This document shows, piece after piece, positions 4,935-16,987 of a DNA stretch of 64,000 nucleotides (its first letter is position 1; each line of letters begins with the position of its first letter). The position numbers and the translations under genes are program-made. Source of the stretch: an uncultured Caproiciproducens sp. (GTDB taxonomy: Bacteria > Bacillota > Clostridia > Oscillospirales > Acutalibacteraceae); contig NZ_OY761810.1 in NCBI RefSeq assembly GCF_963664915.1, forward strand, positions 62,001 to 126,000, given 5' to 3'. The notes under the pieces were generated by a model, which saw only the letters and a program-made list of their open reading frames with translations, was not told where the DNA came from and ran no database searches.

Positions 4935-5717
4935 TTACTCATCAACACTTTCAAATCGAGCAACATAGTGGAATTTCAGCATAGACGTCATGCTTGGGTT
5001 AACAACCTCGATTTGGTCGAGTTGATCGAATCCGATGTCCGCCTCCAGCCGGATTTCTCTTTCTTCACCCTTTTTCAGGTCGTAATGTTCGGGCTGATCG
5101 TTTTGCAGCGGAGCAGACCATGTGCCTCCGTCCGGGTCATAAGCACTGTGGTTCAGGCGCAATTTACCCTCTAACACTGTGATTTTATACACACATTTCC
5201 CCGCCTGTACCGGAAGCAGACAGGAACTGGGCTTAAAGCTCATTTGACCGCTAAGCGTAACAATATCATCCATATGCCTGCATTTTAGTACATTTCCAGC
5301 CGATTTCTCACTGGGTATATTTTCCGGAACAATCATTACAATGCATTTTGCGTATTTTACAACATATGTTGCGACCGAACCGATTTTTTGGGACCAACCG
5401 GTCTTTGTGGATTTTGTCATCACGATAATATCAATTTCATCCTGCTCCGCACATTCAAGAATTTGATCACCTGCGCGCCCGAAAACGACTTGTTTTCGAA
5501 CAGTATAGTTTGGTAATTGTTCAGCTACTGCATCCAATGTAGATTTCAACTGCGCTTTGGATTTTTCCAATTCCTCTTCGGAATACATTGTTTCCGCATC
5601 TTCACGAACCATAAGAAGCACGATGGTCACATTTTCCGGAGTATAAAGTGACTTTGTTAATTCAACCGCTTTTAAACTTCGCACCGTCCCGTCAATCGGC
5701 AGTAAAACTTTTCTCAT
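4935..5717 (-). CDS. Universal stress protein with C-terminal extension
   Basis: The start at 5717 (MRKVLLPIDGTVRSLKAVEL) has GGGGGTG six bases upstream. Residues 1 to about 135 are a UspA domain: the beta1 strand with Asp (LLPIDG), the strand with MTKSTK, and the nucleotide-loop region GWSQKIGSVATYVVKYAKC followed by IVMIVPE. A further roughly 125 residues have no family I recognise; they read as beta-rich (TVLEGKLRLNHSAYDPDGGT, EIRLEADIGFDQLDQIEVV). It is the third gene of the operon behind the fluoride riboswitch at 8841-8932. uspA is one of the genes known to follow fluoride riboswitches, so a role in fluoride stress is likely. The extension could be a second sensory domain. Confidence 0.85.
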   Translation of the reverse strand: MRKVLLPIDGTVRSLKAVELTKSLYTPENVTIVLLMVREDAETMYSEEELEKSKAQLKSTLDAVAEQLPNYTVRKQVVFGRAGDQILECAEQDEIDIIVMTKSTKTGWSQKIGSVATYVVKYAKCIVMIVPENIPSEKSAGNVLKCRHMDDIVTLSGQMSFKPSSCLLPVQAGKCVYKITVLEGKLRLNHSAYDPDGGTWSAPLQNDQPEHYDLKKGEEREIRLEADIGFDQLDQIEVVNPSMTSMLKFHYVARFESVDE

Positions 5718-5784: not shown

Positions 5785-7284
5785 CTATATTGTTTCTTCA
5801 AATATTTTCTGATATAGATCTTCACCAAAACTTGTTTTCAAAGGCTCTCCCTGTGCCAATTCAAAAGTACGTTTTCCATCGTGCTGCCTTCCGGCTCTTA
5901 GAAAAATGGCATTGTCCAAGTTTTTATCGAATAAACTGTGCGCAAATTCGTATAAATGTGTTACAAATACAATTTTGATTTGTTTTTCCAACAAGGCACA
6001 AATAATTTGTCTTGCTATTTCTGAACCTTCTCTTTCATTTGTTGCAGCGAATGATTCATTGAATAATACGATTGCATTTGGTGATAAGTTGTCCACGATG
6101 CCACTCATTCTGCTTAGTTCTTCATCCAGCTTTCCACTGTTCATAGCGGAATCTTCCTCTCTCCTGTAGTGCGTGAAGATACCGTCGCATATGTTGGCGC
6201 AAAACGACTCGGCGGGAACAAACATACCGCATTGCATCATCAGTTGAGCAAGCCCGACGCTTCGTAAAAAAGTCGATTTACCGCCCTGATTGGCGCCTGT
6301 AATGATCATGATATCTTTGCTGTCGGCATTGATATCGTTCCCCACAACTTTTTGTTTTAAGGTCAAAGCAAGACAAGCATCATAAAGCCCTTTAAAAGAA
6401 TGTCTTCGCTCCTTGGGCGCAGCCGGTATGGGAAAAGATACCGGTTCCACCATTTGCGTCAGCTGGTCGTATAAATTTAGACATCCAACATAAAAAGCAA
6501 GTTCCGTGCGCAGCATGTTGAAAAAGCTGGTGATATGATCAACAGATTGAGCGAGAGCATTTGCAACAAGATTGACACCCCTGTCTCTGATTTGCGACAA
6601 CGCCTTCATACCGCTTTCATCGCGTTCAGCAATGAAGAAGGCGTACTCCGGCACTTTTTGAGAAAACATTCGTTTGACCCAGCTTTGTTTTTGCTCCGGA
6701 GACTTGCGCAGAATATAGTTCGTACCTTTATTGCCGTTTGCCAGCTCGGCGCTGATTAAAACTCCGTCACTGAATTTTAAATCCTTCAGGTGATTCCGGA
6801 TGCTTTCTAAATACTCGTCGTTCAATTCCTCATGAATCATTGCGAAAAACCTTTTGAATCCTTGTGATTCGAATTGATCAGCGTGCTCGTCGGCGATATT
6901 CTTCAATTTTTTAAGCGTCTCCATAAGGATTTGCATGATTTCAACCGAACCATACAGAATTGAATCGGGAGAATGGCTGAACATGCTCCAGTAAAGCCCT
7001 TTTTTGCTTTCAAGGGACTGTACCGCAATATCATAGAGTTTCCTTATGACGGAAGTGTTTTTTATGCAATCCTTTAGAATATCTTGACGGTATAAAATGG
7101 TATCGGAATTATTTAAACTTGTCAAAAGAGCTTCCTTTGCGACTTGGAGCAAAAAGTTATCTTCCAGTGCCATGGTTTCCAAAAGTGTGTTTAACTCCAA
7201 GTCCTGTGTCAATGCTTGTTCACCGGGCGGCAGCTCTTGATTTAAGTCAAAGTCACGATCACGATACATCAGGAAAACTTTCAT
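5785..7284 (-). CDS. MutS-family ATPase, second gene of fluoride-riboswitch operon
   Basis: This is a 499-residue relative of the core and ATPase part of MutS; the N-terminal mismatch-recognition domain is absent. The start is MKVFLMYRDRDFDLNQ at 7284, in an ATGA overlap with the upstream gene, which indicates translational coupling. Walker A is GANQGGKST near residue 327. The Walker B region reads IVLFNESFAATNEREG, with Asn in place of the usual Asp before the Glu. ITHY-type loop and the switch His (FVTHLYEF) are visible. It pairs with the gene at 7281-8816, presumably as a heterodimer, and has a paralogue at 15494-16987. mutS-like genes are known neighbours of fluoride riboswitches; the DNA substrate, if any, is unknown. 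Confidence 0.85.
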   Translation of the reverse strand: MKVFLMYRDRDFDLNQELPPGEQALTQDLELNTLLETMALEDNFLLQVAKEALLTSLNNSDTILYRQDILKDCIKNTSVIRKLYDIAVQSLESKKGLYWSMFSHSPDSILYGSVEIMQILMETLKKLKNIADEHADQFESQGFKRFFAMIHEELNDEYLESIRNHLKDLKFSDGVLISAELANGNKGTNYILRKSPEQKQSWVKRMFSQKVPEYAFFIAERDESGMKALSQIRDRGVNLVANALAQSVDHITSFFNMLRTELAFYVGCLNLYDQLTQMVEPVSFPIPAAPKERRHSFKGLYDACLALTLKQKVVGNDINADSKDIMIITGANQGGKSTFLRSVGLAQLMMQCGMFVPAESFCANICDGIFTHYRREEDSAMNSGKLDEELSRMSGIVDNLSPNAIVLFNESFAATNEREGSEIARQIICALLEKQIKIVFVTHLYEFAHSLFDKNLDNAIFLRAGRQHDGKRTFELAQGEPLKTSFGEDLYQKIFEETI

Positions 7285-8816
7285 GATTTGATACGCCCCT
7301 TTATGCAAACATAGGTAAGCTGATATTTTTCGGCAATAGATAGTGCGTATGCAAGCCCATCGGCAGGTTTTCTTACAATTTTGTAGGTTCTTTGCGCCGG
7401 GTTCTTCGGAACAATCGTGCTGGCCATGCTAACGGTCTTTTCACCTAATGAAGCCAATTCGTCAACAAAAGTGACACAGACACACAAGGTATCCAGTTCC
7501 ATTATTTTTTCAATTACCTTTCTTCCTAAAAGTATGGCGTCCTTTAAAGTCGTGGAAGAGAAAATTTCATTCATAATGATGATACTCTTCGGGGTTGCCT
7601 GATTCAGAATGTCATGAATCCGGATCAGGTCGTCCTGCAGCTTACCGCTCAGGTTTTTAATATCTTCTTCCCTTTCAAAATGGGTATAGATTCTGTCAAA
7701 CAGAAATAGTCGGGCGTCACTGCCCGGTACAGGGCAACCGAGTCCTGCAAGATAATGCAACTGCCCGAAAGCGCGGGCAAAAGTTGTCTTACCGCCCTGA
7801 TTTGGGCCGGATATAACAATAATACGTTCCTTGTCTTTCAAATAAAAATCATTGCACACGACAGCCGATTTTTGAGAAATCAGCTTATTTGCAAGAGCCA
7901 GGTCAAACCCTTCATTATCGTAAATTTCCTTGCATTGTTCAGAGACGGTGGGATAACAAAACTTTAATCCAATGTTTTTAAATGTAGATATATATTCTAA
8001 ATAGGAAATGTAAAATTGTATTTCACGGTCAAAATGTTTTATTTTACTGTCAATAAAATTATTCCTCTGCGAGCAAAAATTATCAAGATGCATAAAAATT
8101 TTAGGATATAATTTGGCAACTAAATCCAATGCCTTTGACTCAACTTCATGCATTCCTTTATCCGCCAAAAACTTAATCCGGTAATCGTTTACTTCTCCCT
8201 GTTTGAATTTTTCAAACGTTTTTTCTACATCTATGCTGTAATCGATTTCAGATTCATATTTACGGACTTTGACACAATTGCCCTTAATGAGCAAACAATA
8301 TTTTACGGTGGACAGCTCCTCTTCCAGTTTTTCCGTTTCAGACATAAGGGTTGTAAAGGAATCTGACTTAATATAATCATTTATATATTCACGAAAAGCT
8401 AAAAAGCCGCGCGATTTTAGGTCCACCAAAAATAAATCGCGGGCCAGGCCATTGACTGCGCCGCAATAAATACCAGCCGCGACCAAAAACCAACCTTGCT
8501 TGTTATAATGATAATAGAGCTTATCTGCCAATGCAAGATGTGAGCGCACATTGTGCATTTCCTGCGCAAAAACTTTGACATACTCAAATAAAGCTATGTT
8601 TTCAAGCTCCTTCATGATCTCCTGACGGTATTTGATCGTATCCACATCTTTTAGGGAAACATAAAAGAATGGTTTCAAGTTATATTCATCCTTGCCGGCA
8701 GTGACAGAGGCCACAATTTGGTCAAGATTCAGATCAGTAAAACAGGCAGGTTCCTCCTCTGTTTCTATTTCAGTACAATCATCCATTTTTTCAAACAGAA
8801 TACTGCGAAAAGTCAT
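7281..8816 (-). CDS. MutS-family ATPase, first gene of fluoride-riboswitch operon
   Basis: This is a 511-residue MutS-like protein without the mismatch-binding N-terminal domain. A long helical core (residues about 50-310) is followed by the ATPase: Walker A GPNQGGKTTFAR near residue 336, Walker B region SIIIMNEIFSSTTLKDA (again Asn-Glu where MutS has Asp-Glu) and the strand CVCVTFVDEL. GGAGG lies 10 bases before the ATG. The two adjacent genes are only distantly alike, so each pair probably forms an asymmetric dimer. The gene follows directly after the fluoride riboswitch and its terminator. Its closest relative in the window is 13897-15447, which shares the FxSILF opening and the NEIFSSTTLKDA block. 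Confidence 0.87.
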   Translation of the reverse strand: MTFRSILFEKMDDCTEIETEEEPACFTDLNLDQIVASVTAGKDEYNLKPFFYVSLKDVDTIKYRQEIMKELENIALFEYVKVFAQEMHNVRSHLALADKLYYHYNKQGWFLVAAGIYCGAVNGLARDLFLVDLKSRGFLAFREYINDYIKSDSFTTLMSETEKLEEELSTVKYCLLIKGNCVKVRKYESEIDYSIDVEKTFEKFKQGEVNDYRIKFLADKGMHEVESKALDLVAKLYPKIFMHLDNFCSQRNNFIDSKIKHFDREIQFYISYLEYISTFKNIGLKFCYPTVSEQCKEIYDNEGFDLALANKLISQKSAVVCNDFYLKDKERIIVISGPNQGGKTTFARAFGQLHYLAGLGCPVPGSDARLFLFDRIYTHFEREEDIKNLSGKLQDDLIRIHDILNQATPKSIIIMNEIFSSTTLKDAILLGRKVIEKIMELDTLCVCVTFVDELASLGEKTVSMASTIVPKNPAQRTYKIVRKPADGLAYALSIAEKYQLTYVCIKGRIKS

Positions 8817-8840: not shown

Positions 8841-8932
8841 AAAAAAAAGCTGACGGTATCTACATTATGTAGAAGCCATCAGCCGTTATCAGCAATTCGA
8901 ATTTTTCCAAAGGGGAGCTTCATCCCTTTTGC
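8841..8932 (-). promoter_or_regulatory. Fluoride riboswitch (crcB motif) before mutS-like/uspA operon
   Basis: Read on the minus strand, the aptamer starts with GGGATGAAGCTCCCC (hairpin and pseudoknot strand, about 8911-8927). It ends with GCTGATGGCTTCTAC, which begins a strong terminator hairpin (GCTGACGG arm) followed by eight T (8841-8848). This is the crcB layout: fluoride binding should prevent the terminator. One base differs from the other copies (GATGGCTT instead of GATGACTT). It lies between promoter 8935-8963 and the ribosome binding site at 8827-8831. Confidence 0.87.
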
Positions 8933-8934
8933 TT

Positions 8935-8963
8935 AGTATAGCACTATTAAATTCAGGTAGCAA
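8935..8963 (-). promoter_or_regulatory. Sigma-A promoter for riboswitch at 8841-8932
   Basis: On the minus strand a -35 box TTGCTA (8958-8963), a 17-base spacer and a -10 box TATACT (8935-8940) lie immediately before the aptamer. The -35 is 36 bases from that of the divergent promoter at 9000-9028, so the two fluoride operons fire back to back. Confidence 0.7.
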
Positions 8964-8999
8964 TAAAAAAATAGGTCGGATTACAGCTTGAATAAATAT

Positions 9000-9028
9000 T
9001 TGACTTGATGTTGACAACAGCTTATAAT
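9000..9028 (+). promoter_or_regulatory. Sigma-A promoter for MFS operon
   Basis: TTGACT (9000-9005), a 17-base spacer and a perfect TATAAT (9023-9028). Transcription would begin about ten bases before the aptamer of the riboswitch at 9043-9124. Confidence 0.8.
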
Positions 9029-9042
9029 GAACGAAAGTGAGA

Positions 9043-9124
9043 AACAATGGTGATGAAGTTCGCCTTAAATATCCATTGTTAGGATTAATGACTTCTATCA
9101 GAAATGGTAGTGGTCTTTTTTTAT
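9043..9124 (+). promoter_or_regulatory. Fluoride riboswitch (crcB motif) before MFS gene
   Basis: AACAATGG (9043-9050) pairs perfectly with CCATTGTT (9073-9080). Between them is the aptamer core TGATGAAGTTCGCC, the closest of the six copies to the classical GATGG-GTTCGCC core. Then come ATTAATGACTTCTATC and a hairpin (ACTTCTATCA/TGGTAGTGGT) followed by seven T, an intrinsic terminator. The adjacent MFS gene starts 30 bases later. Confidence 0.88.
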
Positions 9125-9153
9125 TCTAATACGCAGATAACGGAGGAATGTTT

Positions 9154-10345
9154 ATGCCAAATATCAAGAAGCGGGGAAAAGAAAAAAACAATGTTCGTGC
9201 ACTGGGGTGGGTAGCGTTCTTCGGCGGTTTTGGCCAGGATATGATTCAACCCATTCTTCCTGTATTTTACTCCTCTGTTCTCGGGCTCAGCAAAGAAACG
9301 ATCGGATTAATAGAAGGCAGTCTTACTACAATTGTCAGCGTCTTTAAAATTCTTTCAGGCTTTTTATCAGACAAACTGAGAAAACGGAAAAGTATTGTGT
9401 TTACCGGCTATTTATTATCAGTCGTCAGCCGCTTTTTATTTGGCTTTGTTTTTTCGGCATGGCAGGCTTTTGCGCTCCGCTTTATCGATGGTATAGGAAA
9501 AGGTACCAAAGACGCACCGAGACGCGTTAGTTGCTCAATCAGCCAAAGAAGGGAAAATGGGATTTTCTTTTGGCTATCAGCGCATGCTGGACACATTTGG
9601 TTCGGTTGTGGGTCCACTCGTAACAGCAGGGCTGCTGTATGTGCTTGCGAAAAATGCCATGCAATACAGAATTATCTTTTACATCGGCGGTTCAATTTCA
9701 GCCGTGACACTTCTGCTGATTGCGTTTTTTGTAAAAGAAAAGCCGCAGGCCGATTCAAAAGATCAGAATAAATTTGATTTTAGTCTTTTAAAAGGTAAAT
9801 TTCTGTTTTTCTTAGTCATCATGCTTGTGTTTACGCTTGGAAATTCCAGTGACTCCTACTTAATCCTGCGTGCCCAGGATGTCGGCGTCAGCGCAATTGC
9901 AATTCCCATCGTTTATGCCCTGTTCAATTTATTTTATGGATTGCTTGCGACTCCTGCCGGAATATTATCAGATAATATCGGGCGGATAAAAATCATGCAG
10001 GCAGGATGGCTGATTTATGCTTTATGCTACATTGGTTTCGCTGTTGCTCGCCAACCATGGCAAATATGGTTAATTTATATTTTTTACGGTATGTATTATG
10101 CAACGACAGAAGGAATCTCAAAAGCTTTGGTTGCCCGTGTCGTGCCTGAAAATCAGCGCGGAACTGCTTATGGGCTTTTTAACGCGTCGCTGGGTCTTAT
10201 GTCGTTACCGGCTAATCTGATCGCAGGGTATCTCTGGGACAGGGTTGCACCTTCTGCAACATTTTATTTCGGTGCCATATGCGCATTAGCCGCATTCGTA
10301 TTAATAAGCTTTTCAAAACTGGATAAACCGCAAATCTCGTCATAA
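9154..10345 (+). pseudogene. MFS transporter, frameshifted
   Basis: A 12-helix major facilitator gene split into two frames. Frame one runs from the ATG at 9154 (GGAGG 7 bases upstream; the ATG at 9148 is too close) to GIGKGTKDAPR. The continuation is in another frame: DALVAQSAKEGKMGFSFGYQ through to SFSKLDKPQISS at 10345. In related MFS proteins KDAPRD is uninterrupted; here CCGAGACGCG would read correctly as CCGAGAGACGCG, so two bases (GA) appear lost near 9519-9523. Without the shift it would be a normal protein of about 397 residues. It is the first gene behind a fluoride riboswitch, which makes it a candidate fluoride-stress transporter that is either inactivated, recoded or affected by a sequence error. 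Confidence 0.8.
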
Positions 10346-10358
10346 AGAAGGTTGCTGT

Positions 10359-10790
10359 ATGAATAGTGAAATAAATGCATCTGAGAACAAACAAAATGGT
10401 CTGAACGAGAATCACATAAGAGCTATTTCCATCACCCTTAGTGAGCTGGAAAAAAATATTGACGAAATAGAAGGTTTCATCAAAGACATGCATCGTGGAA
10501 GAATGTATGAAATTAAAAATGATTTAACAGATCTTCAAAAAGAAATTTTTCTGGAACAAATTCAGCAATTAAGGGAGAGTATCTGCCAATTTGCGGATGA
10601 ATTCGGCTTGGTTGCAGAAAGCGAAAGCTTGTCATATTTAATACGCGGTACTTTTTCAATAGAATGGGTTAATGTCTGCGAAATGGAGCCTAAACGGTTA
10701 AGTGGTTATGGAGACGTCGGGAAAGATATCTGGAATTCGTTGGATAATTATATTAAAAAATTAGAAAAGCTAATTAATAACATTAAATAA
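10359..10790 (+). CDS. Hypothetical helical protein in fluoride-riboswitch operon
   Basis: This 143-residue product matches no family I recognise. It is predicted to be soluble and almost wholly helical, with coiled-coil-like stretches (ISITLSELEKNIDEIEGFIK, DLQKEIFLEQIQQLRESI) and a Trp-containing segment near residue 105 (FSIEWVNVCEMEPKRL). It has no signal peptide or membrane segment. It begins 13 bases after the MFS gene, with a weak AGAAGG site, and ends before the terminator at 10874-10917, so it should be co-induced by fluoride with that transporter. Confidence 0.65.
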   Translation: MNSEINASENKQNGLNENHIRAISITLSELEKNIDEIEGFIKDMHRGRMYEIKNDLTDLQKEIFLEQIQQLRESICQFADEFGLVAESESLSYLIRGTFSIEWVNVCEMEPKRLSGYGDVGKDIWNSLDNYIKKLEKLINNIK

Positions 10791-10873
10791 AGAGCTCGTT
10801 CTGGCTGATTCAAAAAATATTGAATTCGATTAATCGACATGAGTTAGGAATGGCTCGCAATAAGAACTCTAAA

Positions 10874-10917
10874 AGGCTCGGATCAAGCGATTAACCGCTT
10901 CACCTGAGCTTTTTTTG
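10874..10917 (+). terminator. Intrinsic terminator of the MFS operon
   Basis: A hairpin with inner arms AAGCG/CGCTT and outer arms GGCTC/GAGCT is followed by seven T. It lies about 85 bases after the stop of the small helical protein. Confidence 0.65.
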
Positions 10918-11001
10918 TATTTTCAATCATTTTATTTTCAGCTGAAGGATAATGTGATCTGGTTGAAATTCATAATTCAATAATAGCGGCCTAAGTATTT
11001 A

Positions 11002-11514
11002 CTATTCACAACAGCAGTCAAAATTATCTAAGTCGCTTCTTTTTTCCAAGAGGACTGTTTTTCTCCATGTACCAAACCGATCTCGTGCTATTCTATCAAA
11101 ATATCCAACCTTACGGAAACCACATTTCTCATATAACAATATACACGAGTAATTATTTTGCATAATGTTTGCCTGCAAAGACCAGATGCCGTTTTTTTCT
11201 GACATTTCAACTATTCTATTTAATAGCAGTGTGCCTATCCCCTGGTGTTTTAATTTGTTGATTACATAGATATTTATTTCTGCCACACCAGAGTATATGC
11301 ATCTGCTTGAGACTGGTGACAATGCAGCCCACCCAACTACTTTGCCATCCTGCTCGCATACATAACGGCATATTTCATAATACGAGTTATTCCATTCCGG
11401 ATAGGAAGGACAAGTGGTTCGAAATGTAGCCAAATTTGTATTAATGCCCTGATGATATATTTTTTTAACGTCATCCCAATCATTTTCTATAAAAAGTCTT
11501 ATGTTTTTTTCCAC
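11002..11514 (-). CDS. GNAT N-acetyltransferase (phosphinothricin acetyltransferase-like)
   Basis: This is a single-domain 170-residue acetyl-CoA-dependent acetyltransferase. It opens with IRLFIENDWDDVKKIYHQGI. The central strand GKVVGWAALSPVS, the CoA-binding loop KLKHQGIGTLLLNRIV (Q-x-x-G-x-G/A) and the C-terminal block YEKCGFRKVGYFDRIARDRF with GTWRKTVLLEK are arranged as in the PAT/YncA subfamily, whose members acetylate phosphinothricin, methionine sulfone or related amino acids. The start is GTG at 11514, with AAGGTGG 7 bases upstream. It stands alone; the gene remnant and riboswitch at 11638-11935 lie upstream on the same strand. The true substrate is unknown. Confidence 0.88.
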   Translation of the reverse strand: MEKNIRLFIENDWDDVKKIYHQGINTNLATFRTTCPSYPEWNNSYYEICRYVCEQDGKVVGWAALSPVSSRCIYSGVAEINIYVINKLKHQGIGTLLLNRIVEMSEKNGIWSLQANIMQNNYSCILLYEKCGFRKVGYFDRIARDRFGTWRKTVLLEKRSDLDNFDCCCE

Positions 11515-11637
11515 TTTTAAACCACCTTCTTGAACAGTTTTCTTTTGGAAACCACAGCTAAATGAGAGTTGTTTCCGAAGCCTTCATTAGTTAGAGCCTA
11601 TATTCAACATCGAAAATTGACACGCATGAAAGAAAGG

Positions 11638-11827
11638 CTAAATTCTACGAAAAAGACACGCACTTCGTATTTTCCCCCAAAGGAGCTTCATCATTATTTG
11701 TACCAAAAAAAAATTACCTATTTCATAACCGACAAAAAAACAAATCAGTCCAATAGCTACCGACAAAGCAATAAACAATATCGATTCTTTGACTGCATCG
11801 TGTGCATTAGTTAGCTGAGGATAGCAT
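11638..11827 (-). pseudogene. Decayed membrane-protein gene behind a fluoride riboswitch
   Basis: Directly downstream of the riboswitch at 11843-11935 an ATG (11825-11827) opens a frame that stops after six codons (MLSSAN). In another frame the sequence continues as AHDAVKESILFIALSVAIGL, then ICFFVGYEIGNFFLVQ, a clear hydrophobic helix preceded by a charged segment. It then runs into unrelated residues and a stop at 11638. The pattern resembles the start of TerC/Alx-type membrane proteins (H-x-x-x-K-E-x-I then a helix), but the match is short. It is best read as a fluoride-induced gene that lost most of its body. Confidence 0.5.
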
Positions 11828-11842
11828 AAACCCTATAGATCC

Positions 11843-11935
11843 AAAAAAAGCTAATGATTTCTTTGCGTTTAATCAAAGAAGTCATTAGCCAGCATAGCGG
11901 TTTTGCATCATTACAAGGGAGAGCTTCATTCCCAT
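11843..11935 (-). promoter_or_regulatory. Fluoride riboswitch (crcB motif), orphan copy
   Basis: Minus-strand aptamer GGGAATGAAGCTCTCCC (11917-11933), then GCTAATGACTTCTTTG. The latter forms a long terminator hairpin with CAAAGAAATCATTAGC, followed by seven T (11843-11849). All elements are intact, although the gene behind it is decayed. Confidence 0.87.
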
Positions 11936-11939
11936 ATTT

Positions 11940-11986
11940 AATATATCATGCTATCATAATCTGTTAATGTAAATGATAGCATTAAC
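11940..11986 (-). promoter_or_regulatory. Promoter overlapped by nested inverted repeats
   Basis: On the minus strand TTAACA (11962-11967), 16 bases and TATATT (11940-11945) form a promoter for the riboswitch at 11843-11935. Two interlocking inverted repeats cover its upstream half: ATGCTATCAT/ATGATAGCAT (11948-11957 and 11973-11982, perfect 10-base arms) and GTTAATG/CATTAAC (11963-11969 and 11980-11986). They could be operators; none of the other five riboswitch promoters shows them. Confidence 0.45.
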
Positions 11987-12117
11987 AAATGTTTAATGTT
12001 ATTAACGCATTCAGCTTGAAAGATCACAATATTTTTGCTTTTTAGAAAAGAATAAGCACGCTTTTCACATCCGTTAGCACCACATTTCCTATTGCTAAAG
12101 TGATAATATGGCACGCA

Positions 12118-12651
12118 TTAAATATGGGAAAACTCTTTTAAATACCTGTTAATACTCTCCTGGATAATCTGCTTCGCTTCCTCTGAATTTTGAGTGTTTT
12201 CAACTGCGGTGGCCTTGCCTTCAAGCTCCTTGTAAAAAGAAAAAAAGTGCGACATTTCTTCAAAGACATGCTTTGGTAATTCTCTAATATCCTTGAATAC
12301 ATTGTAAGTGGGGTCATGAAAAGGAATGGCAATTATTTTTTCATCCTTAGTACCACTGTCTACCATGGTGATGACGCCAATAGGATAGCATCGGACAAGT
12401 GAAAGCGGCTGGATATCTTCGGAACATAGTACCAGTACATCCAGTGGGTCCTTATCTGCTGCGTAAGTGCGGGGAATAAAACCATAATTGGCAGGATAAT
12501 GCGCGGAAGTATATAGCACTCGATCCATATAAAGTAAACCGGTTTCTTTATCCAGCTCATATTTGGTTTTACAACCCTTAGGAATCTCAATAACCGCGCA
12601 AAAATCATCCGCCTGAATCCTGTCTTGAGAAATATCATGCCAAATGCTCAA
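12118..12651 (-). CDS. ppa: Inorganic pyrophosphatase, family I
   Basis: This soluble Mg-dependent enzyme hydrolyses pyrophosphate to two phosphates and drives biosynthetic reactions. Visible features: the EIPKGCKTKYELDKETGLL substrate-binding block, YPANYGFIPRTYA, and the family I signature DKDPLDVLVL, whose three Asp bind metal. The 177 residues are normal for the bacterial form. The start is TTG at 12651 (LSIWHDI) with GGAGGGAC just upstream. It lies right behind a fluoride riboswitch. Pyrophosphatases are classically inhibited by fluoride and are known in this regulon, so extra enzyme made during fluoride exposure is the likely purpose. Confidence 0.93.
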   Translation of the reverse strand: MSIWHDISQDRIQADDFCAVIEIPKGCKTKYELDKETGLLYMDRVLYTSAHYPANYGFIPRTYAADKDPLDVLVLCSEDIQPLSLVRCYPIGVITMVDSGTKDEKIIAIPFHDPTYNVFKDIRELPKHVFEEMSHFFSFYKELEGKATAVENTQNSEEAKQIIQESINRYLKEFSHI

Positions 12652-12684
12652 AAAAGTCCCTCCAATTTTGATTTGTTAAAAAAT

Positions 12685-12771
12685 AAAAAAGCTGACCACT
12701 TTCTGTATAAAACAGAAGTCATCAGCTTAAAAAGCAATTTTAGCAATGCTAAGGGAGAACTTCATTCCCTC
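12685..12771 (-). promoter_or_regulatory. Fluoride riboswitch (crcB motif) before ppa
   Basis: Minus-strand aptamer GGGAATGAAGTTCTCCC (12753-12769). Then GCTGATGACTTCTG forms the 5' arm of a terminator hairpin (3' arm AAGTGGTCAGC) followed by six T near 12685. It is placed between promoter 12779-12807 and the TTG start of ppa. Confidence 0.9.
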
Positions 12772-12778
12772 TCGCCGT

Positions 12779-12807
12779 ATTATAGCAAATTATGATTTAT
12801 TAATCAA
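12779..12807 (-). promoter_or_regulatory. Sigma-A promoter of ppa
   Basis: On the minus strand TTGATT (12802-12807), a 17-base spacer and a perfect TATAAT (12779-12784). Confidence 0.75.
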
Positions 12808-12957
12808 TAGTTTATTTTAAATCCGTTCAGATTGTATTTTCTTTGGTCGGGTTAATATCATCCTCCTCGGAAACAAGAGGGAAAGCCTTTCGATGTGTGA
12901 TCTGTTAGAAATATGTATGAAGAATAAATGAATTTTTTAATGAAATCTTGCGACCCA

Positions 12958-12986
12958 TTGATTTTTATTAAGGTTTGGCCTATAAT
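12958..12986 (+). promoter_or_regulatory. Sigma-A promoter of rex-like/mutS-like operon
   Basis: TTGATT (12958-12963), a 17-base spacer and TATAAT (12981-12986). The boxes are identical to those of the divergent ppa promoter 150 bases away. Confidence 0.75.
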
Positions 12987-12990
12987 GTTT

Positions 12991-13069
12991 TCGGGAATGA
13001 AGTACTCCCTCGGAAATAACCGAAACGCTTAAAAGCTGATGACTTCTATATAGAAGTCGTCGGCTTTTT
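12991..13069 (+). promoter_or_regulatory. Fluoride riboswitch (crcB motif) before rex-like gene
   Basis: Aptamer GGGAATGAAGTACTCCC, then CGGAAATAACCG and GCTGATGACTTCTATA. The latter forms a near-perfect terminator hairpin with TATAGAAGTCGTCGGC followed by five T. Confidence 0.9.
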
Positions 13070-13160
13070 GTTATCAGAAGGCTAAAAGTGATGCTTTAGC
13101 AGGATAAAGCTGTTGCAATACGGTGGCTTCTGCGTGATGAAAAGCAAAAGAGGGTGCAGT

Positions 13161-13781
13161 ATGGAGTTGACAAATCTAACCGCCGGCACGATGCAGCGGC
13201 TCACATTATATCTTAAGTATCTGCAGGATCTTTCGCCGGTGGTGCGCATGGTGACGCCGAAGATGATGGCGGATGGGGTGATGATCGACCCGAAGGTCGT
13301 TCGGCTGGATATGAAAGCCCTACTAGGAAAGAATAGGGTAAACGAGGAAGATCGGAAAGCACTTATTCATGAAATTATAAAAAAAACGGCTTGTCAGAAA
13401 ATAAATGTTGTAGTACTCGTTGGTGTCGGTAAACTGGGAAAGGCGCTCATGAGCTACGCAGGTTATACTGTATATAACCTTGATATTCTTGCCGGCTTCG
13501 ACGTTGACCCGAAAGTAATCAAAAAAGGAGCATTCGGAAAACCGGTATACCACTTTGACAGACTAAATGAAATTTGCCGCCGCCTGAACGCAAGAATCGG
13601 AGTCATAACAACGCTAGGAGATTGTGCTCAATCGGCATGCGACGCTTTAGTGAAAGCTGGAGTTGTCGCGATCTGGAATTACTCTTCGGTGAGACTGAAA
13701 ACGTCGCCGCATGTAATGGTGTATAACGAAGATATGACCTATTCACTCCGGAAACTTGCAGAATATGCGGCGACACACTGA
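13161..13781 (+). CDS. Rex-like redox-sensing protein with altered DNA-binding region
   Basis: Rex proteins are NADH-sensing repressors. The C-terminal Rossmann domain is clear: VVLVGVGKLGKALMSY (G-x-G-x-x-G), the strand LAGFDVDPKVIKKGAFGKPV and the ending NYSSVRLKTSPHVMVYNEDM typical of Rex. The N-terminal winged helix is recognisable but divergent (QRLTLYLKYLQDL, then TPKMMADGVMIDPKVVRLDM) and lacks the usual FG-x-FG-x-x-G wing. The start at 13161 is chosen over 13113 and 13137 because of GAGGGTG upstream and the fit to Rex N-termini. It is the first gene after the riboswitch at 12991-13069 and precedes the riboswitch at 13786-13879. It may adjust redox genes when fluoride blocks enolase; that is inference. 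Confidence 0.8.
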   Translation: MELTNLTAGTMQRLTLYLKYLQDLSPVVRMVTPKMMADGVMIDPKVVRLDMKALLGKNRVNEEDRKALIHEIIKKTACQKINVVVLVGVGKLGKALMSYAGYTVYNLDILAGFDVDPKVIKKGAFGKPVYHFDRLNEICRRLNARIGVITTLGDCAQSACDALVKAGVVAIWNYSSVRLKTSPHVMVYNEDMTYSLRKLAEYAATH

Positions 13782-13785
13782 AATA

Positions 13786-13879
13786 TACGGGAAAGAAGTA
13801 CTCCCGTGGTGAAAACCCAAACTGCTTTATGCTGATGACTTCTGTAAACAGGCAGAGACATCAGCTATTTTGTCTCTGT
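13786..13879 (+). promoter_or_regulatory. Intra-operon fluoride riboswitch with unusual expression platform
   Basis: It starts four bases after the rex-like stop. The aptamer core is GGGAAAGAAGTACTCCC (A where the other five copies have T), then GCTGATGACTTCTG. The hairpin with CAGAGACATCAGC (13831-13865) lacks a T-run. A competing perfect 8-base stem, CAGAGACA (13853-13860) with TGTCTCTG (13871-13878), ends five bases before the ribosome binding site GGGAG (13884-13888). The two hairpins exclude each other, so control may be at translation. No separate promoter was recognised, so it probably acts on read-through transcript. Confidence 0.78.
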
Positions 13880-13896
13880 GAAAGGGAGAGTGCAAT

Positions 13897-15447
13897 TTGT
13901 TTTACAGTATATTATTTCCGACGGAAGACCAATACAGGCAGTCAAGGCGGGAGACTGCACCGGACTGCTTCAAAGATCTTTATCTGGACCAGATCTTCCA
14001 GTCAATTTTAGCGGATAGAAAAGAATCTAAACTCGAGAGCTTCTTCTACACATCGCTTCGCGATGCGGATACCATTATCTATCGGCAAACGGTATTGCGT
14101 GAACTGGAAAATAATGATCTGCGAAAGCTTTTTTCCGATTTTTCACAGTCCATATATCGCCTTAGCCGATATATGGAAAACATAAAAAGATCGCTCGTGT
14201 CAAAAAACAGCTATGAAAACAATTATCTAACGAAAGGGCGTCTGCTGGATTACGCAGACAGATACTGCGCGGATATTGCCGGACTTATGGATAAACTGCG
14301 AGACAGGGTTCTTTGCTCAGACGGACTGCGGGATTTTATGGAATACCTGACCGCATACACTGGTACAGAGGCATTCACCGGGCTTCGGGGACATATCAGC
14401 CAGTTGCGCAGAGAGCTTTCTTCGGTAGAATACTGTATGCTTATTAAAAACGGGGCAATTCGTGTTCGAAAATATGAAGGTCAGGAAGATCACAGTAAGG
14501 AAGTTCTCCGATTGTTTGACAAATTCCGTCAAGGTGATGTTAATGATTACGGCCGTAAGCTATCCGAGGAACCGGCCGCGCAGCATGTAGAAGCTGCTGT
14601 ACTGAATATGGTTGCTTCATGGTACAAGGACACTTTTGCCGACATGGATGATTTTTGCTCAAAGTATCTGAATTTCTTGGACGAGATCCTTGCGCAGTTT
14701 TCCCGTGAAGTTCAATTTTATCTCTCATGGCTGGATTATATACAGCCGCAGCGTGCAAAAGGACTCCCGTTCTGTTATCCGAAAATGTGTAACGACACCG
14801 AACATCTCTATGACAGAGACGGCTTTGATCTTGCTTTAGCGTCATCAATTGAGGGAAGCGGGCATCCGGTAACGAATGATTTTGTGCTGGATACACCGGA
14901 ACGGATCATTGTTGTGACCGGGCCAAATCAGGGAGGAAAAACCACGTTTGCCCGTGCTTTCGGGCAGATACACTATCTTTCCTGCCTGGGATTATGTGTG
15001 CCGGGAAGCGAAGCTGCGCTTTTCCTTTTCGACAATATTCTTACCCACTTTGGACGGGAGGAAGATTTATCTACCCTAAACGGAAAACTGCAGGACGATC
15101 TCGAACGGCTTCATAAGCTCCTTGGGTACGCTACTCCGCAGAGTATCATCATCATCAATGAGATATTTTCCTCCACTACTTTGAAAGATGCGCTGCTGTT
15201 AGGCAATCGCATGATGGACGCAGTTGCAAAGCTTGGTACTCCTGCCGTATGCGTTACTTTTATCGATGAACTTGCGACTCACGGTGAGGAAACGGTTAGT
15301 ATGATGAGTTCGGTTCTGGAAGACGACCCGACAGTAAGAACTTTTAAAATTATTCGCAAGCCGCCCGATGGTCTTGCCTACGCAATGCACATTGCAGGGA
15401 AATACGAACTAACCTATGAGCAGCTCTGCGGGAGATTGCGCAAATAA
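13897..15447 (+). CDS. MutS-family ATPase, first gene of second pair
   Basis: A 516-residue MutS-like protein without a mismatch-binding domain, paralogous to 7281-8816. It shares the opening FYSILFPTED, the helical core, Walker A GPNQGGKTTFARAFGQ near residue 342, Walker B region SIIIINEIFSSTTLKDALLL and the late block KIIRKPPDGLAYAMHIAGKY. The start is TTG at 13897 with GGGAG 8 bases upstream, just after the riboswitch at 13786-13879. It overlaps no other gene and is followed by its partner. It is clearly diverged from the first copy, so the duplication is not recent or one pair was acquired separately. Confidence 0.87.
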   Translation: MFYSILFPTEDQYRQSRRETAPDCFKDLYLDQIFQSILADRKESKLESFFYTSLRDADTIIYRQTVLRELENNDLRKLFSDFSQSIYRLSRYMENIKRSLVSKNSYENNYLTKGRLLDYADRYCADIAGLMDKLRDRVLCSDGLRDFMEYLTAYTGTEAFTGLRGHISQLRRELSSVEYCMLIKNGAIRVRKYEGQEDHSKEVLRLFDKFRQGDVNDYGRKLSEEPAAQHVEAAVLNMVASWYKDTFADMDDFCSKYLNFLDEILAQFSREVQFYLSWLDYIQPQRAKGLPFCYPKMCNDTEHLYDRDGFDLALASSIEGSGHPVTNDFVLDTPERIIVVTGPNQGGKTTFARAFGQIHYLSCLGLCVPGSEAALFLFDNILTHFGREEDLSTLNGKLQDDLERLHKLLGYATPQSIIIINEIFSSTTLKDALLLGNRMMDAVAKLGTPAVCVTFIDELATHGEETVSMMSSVLEDDPTVRTFKIIRKPPDGLAYAMHIAGKYELTYEQLCGRLRK

Positions 15448-15493: not shown

Positions 15494-16987
15494 ATGAATT
15501 TGAAGGTACATTTAATGCATTGTGATACGGATTTTAATTTACAAGCAAAGTCATGTTTTGGAAAAGACACGCTGATTGCTGATCTTGAATTCAGCCGCAT
15601 TATTTCCACTATGGCACAGGGCGATACAATCATACAGGATGTGTGTAATTCCGCCCTGTTCTGCCCGCTTCAAACTGCCAAGGAAATACGCTACCGCCAG
15701 GATGTTCTTCAGGACTGCATTGACAACCCTGAAGTTGTGAGAAAACTTTATGCGGTTACTATTGAAACGATGGAGCGGAAACACGAGTCCTGGTCATGGC
15801 TGTCAACAAGGCAGAATTTATCCAGCAATTTTTCAAGCGCTGTAAACTTATTGAAAATATATACCGAAATGCTGCAGAAAATGCGCAATGTTGCCGGAAT
15901 GAACATGCAAAATTTCCAATCGCAGGGGTTAAGGAACTTCTCATCCATGCTATGGAGCGAACTTGACGATCATTATTTTTCGCAAATTAGTTCTATTCTT
16001 AATGAGCTAAAAGATGGGACGGGGATGTTAATCAGCGCTAAACTCGGTAATTACAATCAGGGCATCAACTATGTCATGCGGCGAAAAGAAAAAACGCATT
16101 TTTGGCGTCACTGGCATTTCGCTCCGTCTTTTACGCTGGCACCCCGTGACGACGCTGGGGCTTCTGATTTGAGCAATCGCCGTGCCCGTGCGATTAACGA
16201 AAGTGTAAATGTACTGGCACAGTCGGCAGAACATGTGGAAAGCTTTTTTTCAATACTCCAGAAAGAACTCGCGTTTTATGTTGGATGCCTTAATTTATAT
16301 GATAAACTTCAAGCTCTCGGTATGCCTGTCTGCATTCCCAAATTGCTCCCCTCTGAATCGGAGAGCCGGGTGTATGATACGCTTTATGATGTGAGTCTTG
16401 CGCTAACAAAGGATTCAAGTGTAATGGGAAATGAGCTTCATGCCGAAGATAAGCGGCTTTATATCATTACAGGAGCGAATCAGGGTGGAAAATCCACTTT
16501 ACTCAGAAGTATAGGTCAGGCACAGCTTTTAATGCAATGCGGGATGTTCGTCGGCGCGGAGAGTTATCAAGCGCCTATACGCAACGGCGTATTTACACAC
16601 TTTAAAAAAGAGGAAGATACTACTATGACAAGTGGTAAACTGGACGAGGAACTTGCCCGTATGAGTGAGGTAGCCAATCATTTAATACCCGGATCTTTGA
16701 TGTTGTTAAATGAATCGTTCGCTGCTACGAATGAACGCGAGGGTTCCGAAATCTGCAGACAGATTACAAAGGCACTCGTAGACAATGGCGTAGAAGTCTT
16801 TTTCGTGACACATCTTTATACTTTCGCAGTTGCTTTTTTAGACATGAAATATTCAAATGTACAGTACCTGAGTGCACAGCGGTTGCAAAATGGAGAACGA
16901 ACCTTCAAAGTTATACCGGGAAAGCCTCTTCAGACAGCTTATGGAGAAGACCTGTATCAGAAAATATTCTGCTCTGAGGCGGTATAA
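15494..16987 (+). CDS. MutS-family ATPase, second gene of second pair
   Basis: 497 residues, paralogous to 5785-7284: start MNLKVHLMHCDTDFNLQAK (GGGAGG upstream supports the ATG at 15494 rather than earlier in-frame codons). Walker A is GANQGGKSTLLRSIGQ near residue 326. Walker B region LMLLNESFAATNEREGSE again has Asn-Glu. The switch strand is FFVTHLYTFA, and the ending YGEDLYQKIF is shared with the paralogue. Gene order within the pair is the same as in the minus-strand pair, suggesting that the two proteins act together. It lies in the Rex-like operon under fluoride control. Confidence 0.85.
   Translation: MNLKVHLMHCDTDFNLQAKSCFGKDTLIADLEFSRIISTMAQGDTIIQDVCNSALFCPLQTAKEIRYRQDVLQDCIDNPEVVRKLYAVTIETMERKHESWSWLSTRQNLSSNFSSAVNLLKIYTEMLQKMRNVAGMNMQNFQSQGLRNFSSMLWSELDDHYFSQISSILNELKDGTGMLISAKLGNYNQGINYVMRRKEKTHFWRHWHFAPSFTLAPRDDAGASDLSNRRARAINESVNVLAQSAEHVESFFSILQKELAFYVGCLNLYDKLQALGMPVCIPKLLPSESESRVYDTLYDVSLALTKDSSVMGNELHAEDKRLYIITGANQGGKSTLLRSIGQAQLLMQCGMFVGAESYQAPIRNGVFTHFKKEEDTTMTSGKLDEELARMSEVANHLIPGSLMLLNESFAATNEREGSEICRQITKALVDNGVEVFFVTHLYTFAVAFLDMKYSNVQYLSAQRLQNGERTFKVIPGKPLQTAYGEDLYQKIFCSEAV

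Follow-up and report, generated by a model that had tools for sequence, protein, structure and literature searches.

A cluster of six candidate fluoride riboswitches (RS1 to RS6) occupies about five kilobases of a 64,000-nucleotide stretch of an uncultured Caproiciproducens sp. (NCBI RefSeq assembly GCF_963664915.1, contig NZ_OY761810.1, positions 62,001 to 126,000 of the forward strand; hereafter the window), and together with the adjoining genes it is likely to constitute a composite fluoride-response island. That it responds to fluoride, in which direction, what its proteins do and in what order it was assembled are inferences from sequence. In the accessible parts of earlier reports, fluoride riboswitches raise transcription and precede mutS, usp and pyrophosphatase genes (PMC2864571, PMC5533749, PMC11139923), and the same known fluoride-regulon gene types (mutS-like, usp and pyrophosphatase) were found beside the switches.

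Aptamers were detected with the Rfam covariance model RF01734 at its curated cut-off of 34 bits, which was applied to the sites in the window as well as to genomes. The model matched at all six places where a preliminary description of this DNA had suggested a candidate, on both strands and in the layout described before, i.e., two divergent pairs (RS1/RS2 and RS4/RS5) with RS3 and RS6 apart. RS1 (8863..8936, minus strand; 35.9 bits) is located upstream of mutSb-mutSa-usp, the short-form aptamer RS2 (9040..9104, plus strand; 40.9 bits) upstream of an MFS transporter gene, RS4 (12706..12778, minus strand; 41.3 bits) upstream of a pyrophosphatase gene, and RS5 (12984..13055, plus strand; 41.0 bits) upstream of the gene for a Rex-type regulator. 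RS3 (11869..11942, minus strand; 37.5 bits) is an orphan behind which a crcB operon has been deleted, and RS6 (13780..13851, plus strand; 29.7 bits, E-value 4.9e-5 for 10 kb) lies between rex and mutSc-mutSd. The expectation that all six would score above threshold was borne out for RS1 to RS5 (35.9-41.3 bits) and not for RS6; fewer than four covariance matches, an outcome named beforehand as speaking against the cluster, did not occur, as five lie above the cut-off and a sixth below it.

Each of the six aptamers is followed by a terminator-type hairpin that uses the aptamer's own 3' strand, with clear T-runs in five, in agreement with the preliminary description, and TATTTTG instead at RS6. 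Stability z-scores of these hairpins relative to shuffled sequences were -8.2 (RS1), -2.8 (RS2), -6.2 (RS3), -6.6 (RS4), -9.2 (RS5), and -4.1 (RS6). Pairing was assessed in an alignment of 21 aptamers (20 distinct) from the window's genome and genomes G002, G004, G010, and G221, in which the columns of the five pseudoknot and three P3 pairs were set by the analyst from RS4. Among the 20 distinct sequences, these pairs were standard in 98.1% of 156 cells, compared with 22-61% when the pair columns were slid by 1-3 positions as a control, and 14 of the 156 cells had changed on both sides. At the variable pseudoknot position, 12 of the distinct sequences have U-A, seven have C-G, and RS3 has C-A. 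A P1 of four pairs, in either of two registers, is present in all 21 aptamers; RS1, RS2, RS4, and RS5 keep every tested P1, P3 and pseudoknot pair, and in RS6 a gap at one P3 pair is the sole exception. Elsewhere, one P3 pair is broken in the MFS switch of G221 and in the mutS switches of G004 and G010, and some rows have gaps in P3. The elements resemble the crcB motif of RF01734 in the sequence of the aptamer, in its pseudoknot and two stems, in a terminator that overlaps the 3' strand, and in the types of genes downstream; the window differs from it by having six copies in 5 kb, AAG in place of AUG in RS6, and an orphan with a broken pair (RS3).

At low fluoride, transcripts would begin just before the aptamers and stop at the built-in terminators. 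Upon a rise in fluoride, Mg-bound fluoride would lock the pseudoknotted aptamer, making its 3' strand unavailable to the terminator hairpin, and the operons mutSb-mutSa-usp, MFS-143-aa protein, pyrophosphatase, and rex with mutSc-mutSd would then be transcribed. The products may replace or protect poisoned functions, and export would fall to CrcB proteins from a crcB pair that has its own riboswitch and lies about 1 Mb from the island. Among the five highest-scoring promoter-like sites in the region (10 or 11 of 12 matches), four are located just ahead of RS2 (11 of 12), RS3, RS4, and RS5, and a weaker one (9 of 12) precedes RS1.

The whole genome to which the window belongs contains eight RF01734 matches. 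Besides those in the island, RS7 lies upstream of a second pyrophosphatase gene (77% identical to that of the window) and RS8 upstream of an intact crcB pair about 1 Mb from the island; these two loci with riboswitches of their own support the island as part of a fluoride response. A second crcB pair, at 2093 kb, is preceded only by an 18.4-bit match of R1, a riboswitch model built by the analyst. In surveys with RF01734, 11 genomes were drawn from the genus, 300 from the family, 394 from the order, and 398 from the phylum; each set included the genome of the window, and together they amount to about 1,050 different genomes. Matches were present in nine of the 11 genomes of the genus and, with the stricter filters used for surveys of more than 40 genomes making these counts lower bounds, in 60 of 300, 80 of 394, and 156 of 398 genomes of the family, order, and phylum, respectively. 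With eight matches, the window's genome ranks highest among the approximately 1,050 sampled genomes of its phylum, followed by G002 (seven), G806 (six), and G221, G779, G817, G896, and G997 (five each). One match is the count in most sampled genomes that have any, in line with the earlier statement that these elements usually occur once or twice per genome; that statement does not extend to Methylobacterium extorquens DM4, for which the accessible part of PMC6785547 gives at least 10 fluoride riboswitches, and which is similar to the genome studied here in carrying many of them.

The preliminary description had also called the cluster unusually dense, which holds in comparison with the sampled genomes of the phylum and needs qualification in view of comparable islands in sister bacteria and in unrelated ones. 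G002, G221, G004, and G010 carry the same units of gene and riboswitch in other orders, which lends further support to the island. In G002, the units are crcB, GNAT with two MFS genes, and usp with Rex-mutSc-mutSd (five matches in 4.7 kb, three of them above the cut-off); in G221, they are usp-mutSa-mutSb, MFS with GNAT, and crcB (four matches above the cut-off in 2.4 kb), adjoined by a TraG/VirB4-type gene. The G004 island consists of a truncated Rex-mutSc-mutSd and crcB-crcB-usp, and that of G010 of usp-crcB-crcB and mutSc-mutSd. The possibility that the island is unique was rejected, since RF01734 scored above its cut-off four times in the stretch analysed of each of the loci L086 (Lucifera butyrica), L079 (Ca. 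Formimonas warabiya), and L148 (G997); the window's island belongs to a known kind, of which it is a composite and dense example. In the open-licence literature searched, we met no account of a fluoride-riboswitch cluster like this one. A close parallel is the fluoride-resistance genomic island GI3 of Enterobacter cloacae FRM, which in the available text of PMC5533749 has a pyrophosphatase and usp under RF01734 control and is thought to be horizontally acquired. As described there, a single riboswitch of GI3 controls a six-gene operon with crcB and enolase (PMC5533749), whereas the window's island has several switches, separate operons, MutS pairs plus Rex, and has lost crcB.

Identity to the counterparts in G004 and G010 is 78-90% for the window's usp, mutSc, and mutSd, and identity to those in G221 is 62-65% for mutSb and mutSa. 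In the MutS-I tree, mutSb groups with G221 (100/98) and mutSc with G004 (99/97), and the two are placed on opposite sides of a long branch (100/100), with bootstrap values that are unsettled. Because of this identity pattern and tree, the island appears to consist of a core common to genus-mates (usp, Rex, mutSc-mutSd, once with crcB), which would have been joined by a second module of mutSb-mutSa, MFS, and GNAT that adjoins a conjugation-type gene in a related genome.

Several observations weigh against a coordinated fluoride response. Besides the sub-threshold score of RS6, one pseudoknot pair (C-A) is broken in RS3 alone of the 21 aligned aptamers, and the MFS gene behind RS2 either is frame-broken or has been assembled incorrectly. 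Intact crcB genes are present elsewhere in the genome and none is located inside the island. Promoter-like sites in the region show no excess (18 found, 17.9 expected), and a generic terminator scan of the region missed the riboswitch hairpins (five found, 5.1 expected). Moreover, the G221 relative is the sole place beside which conjugation-type genes were observed, the window not having been searched for ends of mobile elements. An alternative built on such signs is that repeated duplication produced six aptamers, only part of which have kept a regulatory role, so that their density would reflect drift. The loss of its genes and of one pseudoknot pair by RS3, the low score and changed common base of RS6, the broken MFS frame, and the unremarkable number of promoter-like sites favor this explanation; however, RS1, RS2, RS4, and RS5 retain all tested pseudoknot and P3 pairs as well as stable hairpins, the same genes follow fluoride-riboswitch matches in distant genomes, and the AAG form of RS6 recurs among aligned matches, and we regard drift as improbable. 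The dedicated fluoride-response island of the preliminary description is well supported by the candidates, their platforms and the regulon gene types, with the amendment that it is composite and includes a relic, RS3. Its further claim that each target operon has its own sensor is not supported, since RS3 has lost crcB, RS6 seemingly lies within a Rex-mutS transcript, and the MFS gene behind RS2 is frame-broken.

The history of RS3 can be read from its sister copy RS8. The surroundings of RS3 match the RS8 locus with 89% identity over 219 columns and then 85% over 108, and between these two blocks some 680 bases, which at RS8 comprise crcB1 and most of crcB2, are absent. A remnant encoding the crcB2 C-terminus is left at 11707..11802 (minus strand), with the deletion junction near 11811/11812; this scar led to rejection of RS3 as the sensor of an operon of its own. 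The pseudoknot pair that is broken in RS3 is intact in RS8. RS3 is a relic of the deleted crcB operon, or at most the leader of a GNAT acetyltransferase gene that starts about 350 bases downstream; a residual role of this kind is possible because relatives of the GNAT gene in G002 and G221 (L033 and L045) directly follow a fluoride-riboswitch match, that of G002 (31.5 bits) being below the cut-off. Beside its intact sister RS8, RS3 shows how a riboswitch may decay after loss of its genes. In the gap between the crcB2 remnant and the GNAT gene, a short sequence similar to a fluoride aptamer's 5' half was noticed by eye (11670-11700, minus strand).

RS6 begins directly behind the Rex stop codon, and no promoter-like site ahead of it was listed in the region scan, for which reasons it apparently lies inside the Rex-mutS transcript. 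It carries AAG where the common base triplet is ATG (AUG): among 136 aligned matches, which include at least six doubles (L047 and L034 are the same contig, as are L063 and L149), the triplet is ATG in 125, AAG in eight, AGG in two, and TTG in one. The AAG aptamers RS6, L049, L051, and L057 and the AGG aptamer L052 all precede mutSc or Rex, which would fit a variant with changed affinity or ligand that provides the island with two response thresholds. This is very unlikely, however, given that the matching switches of G002, G004, G010, L048, L050, and L053 retain ATG and that AAG is also found in L079, L098, L107, and L152, as would be expected for a tolerated change. RS6 is accordingly best described, from its sequence context, as a putative tolerated variant inside the Rex-mutSc-mutSd transcript; it may still be a mere broken copy, against which the recurrence of AAG speaks.

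Two pairs of MutS-type genes adjoin the switches, i.e., mutSb (7281..8816, minus strand; MutS-I type, first gene behind RS1) with mutSa (5785..7284, minus strand; MutS-II type), both assigned by PF00488 and a structure model, and mutSc (13897..15447, plus strand; MutS-I type by PF00488 and tree, behind RS6) with mutSd (15497..16987, open frame from 15416, plus strand; MutS-II type by PF00488). Among the best 80 loci of a capped list of MutS-I relatives, whose record titles name many phyla, archaea included, the tandem of MutS-I and MutS-II is present in 79: in 77 of them, MutS-II begins no more than 400 bases after MutS-I, and in the other two the genes overlap by only a few bases; the one remaining locus runs into a contig end. 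R1 was built from 31 sequences; the window's genome and its relatives contributed 11 of these, and loci L047-L126 none. For the counts at MutS loci, 102 of 109 riboswitch matches were used; the seven weakest (E-values 0.025-0.093) were excluded, which lowers the count, as three of them lie directly ahead of MutS-I. On this basis, 57 of the 80 loci contain at least one fluoride-riboswitch match and 23 contain none; a match lies within 300 bases upstream of MutS-I in 40 loci and within 2.5 kb upstream on the same strand in 12 more (52 in total), leaving 28 with no same-strand match in that range, one of which starts at a contig end.

In 49 homologues of each type, chosen by the analyst, the Walker B motif reads NE in all MutS-I and in 48 MutS-II proteins (DE in the other), giving Asn in 97 of 98. 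Profile alignments place this Asn of MutS-I opposite Asp in a solved MutS2 and in Msh3, and DE is found in the genome's three other MutS-type proteins as well as in all 11 KamC hits above the cut-off in 119 genomes. The P-loop NQGGK is typical of the fluoride-linked pairs. Domain V (PF00488) is the only Pfam MutS domain in mutSa to mutSd (four of four, E-values up to 0.001). Assignment to MutS1 (only PF00488; best score 82.6 bits against 480 for NF003810), to MutS2 (84.8 against 400 for TIGR01069, and no Smr hit), and to KamC (77.6 against 300 for NF052383) was rejected; NCBIfam names KamC a lysine 5,6-aminomutase reactivase ATPase, and no paper on KamC was met in the open-licence literature searched. 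The window's pairs share with these families the MutS domain V ATPase, and MutS-family structures are their nearest solved folds; unlike them, they score below every family cut-off, have NE rather than DE and the NQGGK P-loop, and occur as tandem pairs. Structure models of mutSa and mutSb (predicted local distance difference test values of 85.8 and 86.1, predicted template modelling (TM) score 0.84 each) had MutS-family chains as their best Foldseek hits, along most of their length, with TM-scores of approximately 0.4-0.6 and high root-mean-square deviation; therefore, either the arrangement of the domains differs or the models are imprecise. A short hairpin seems to be all that the models retain of the clamp region. 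The Foldseek matches include a solved Escherichia coli MutS mutant, D693N, which to judge by its title carries the same exchange.

The Asn may weaken Mg binding in the MutS pairs. A tentative proposal, to which we attach low confidence, is that each pair is a fluoride-hardened ATPase machine rather than a mismatch repair system, in which Asn would loosen Mg in the nucleotide site and prevent jamming by ADP-metal-fluoride, a mimic of the transition state. If true, the heterodimer would remain active in the presence of fluoride, where it might release blocked enzymes or nucleoprotein in the way that the name of KamC implies for its own enzyme, and the Rex gene of that operon would couple the machine to the redox state. 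True mismatch repair of fluoride-caused DNA damage is a comparably doubtful explanation: it agrees with the match of the models to MutS-family structures at moderate TM-scores, and with the first annotation as DNA repair in the part available of PMC2864571, and is opposed by domain V as the sole recognizable MutS domain, by the apparent reduction of the clamp, and by the usual DE in the genome's three other MutS-type genes. The mutS link of fluoride riboswitches dates from the first description of the motif; the two pairs from separate lineages offer a compact gene set, and Asn in the Walker B motif of both partners a concrete biochemical prediction.

The Rex-type redox regulator (13161..13781, plus strand, behind RS5) scored 146.3 bits with NCBIfam NF003994, above the cut-off of 130, and its Pfam DNA-binding domain 20.5 bits against a cut-off of 27. 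The BLAST alignment with the genome's other Rex, at 2139 kb, covers only 91 residues at 23% identity; the DNA-binding parts of the two differ, and the other protein has a Gly-rich wing without counterpart in four linked Rex proteins. In G004, a Rex relative without the DNA-binding part (L034:8405-8962) is still located ahead of mutSc-mutSd. A link of Rex to fluoride riboswitches was not met in the open-licence literature searched.

The remaining genes of the island comprise usp (4935..5717, minus strand; universal stress protein, PF00582), the last gene behind RS1, and that for the inorganic pyrophosphatase (12118..12651, minus strand; PF00719) behind RS4. The MFS transporter gene behind RS2 is split into an N-terminal piece (9148..9771, plus strand) and a C-terminal piece in another frame (9557..10345, plus strand), with the frameshift located by eye near 9530 and intact relatives in L033 and L045. 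It is followed under RS2 by the gene for a 143-aa protein (10359..10790, plus strand) without Pfam or NCBIfam match, which has a 45% identical relative in the riboswitch island of L079. In that island (L079:5633-7036), an IS200-type transposase gene (PF01797) separates the relative from the fluoride riboswitch ahead of it. The GNAT acetyltransferase (11002..11514, minus strand) is nearest to the NCBIfam arsinothricin N-acetyltransferase ArsN1 family A, at 108.8 bits below the cut-off of 170; a fluoride-linked amino-acid acetylase would be odd.

Finally, some features of the islands in unrelated bacteria were observed. In Lucifera butyrica, R1 detected three aptamers in 286 bases (L086:6650-6935, minus strand), two of which also pass the Rfam cut-off; the genes downstream of these aptamers encode NADHdh and Proton_antipo_M domains and possibly belong to a hydrogenlyase-type complex. 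Genes for dynamin-family GTPases (PF00350) are present in the islands of three genomes (L079:14252-15913, L086:6977-8758 and 13051-14955, and L148:1378-3141), two of which also contain DUF6062 genes; in the third, DUF6062 is fused to one dynamin-like protein.

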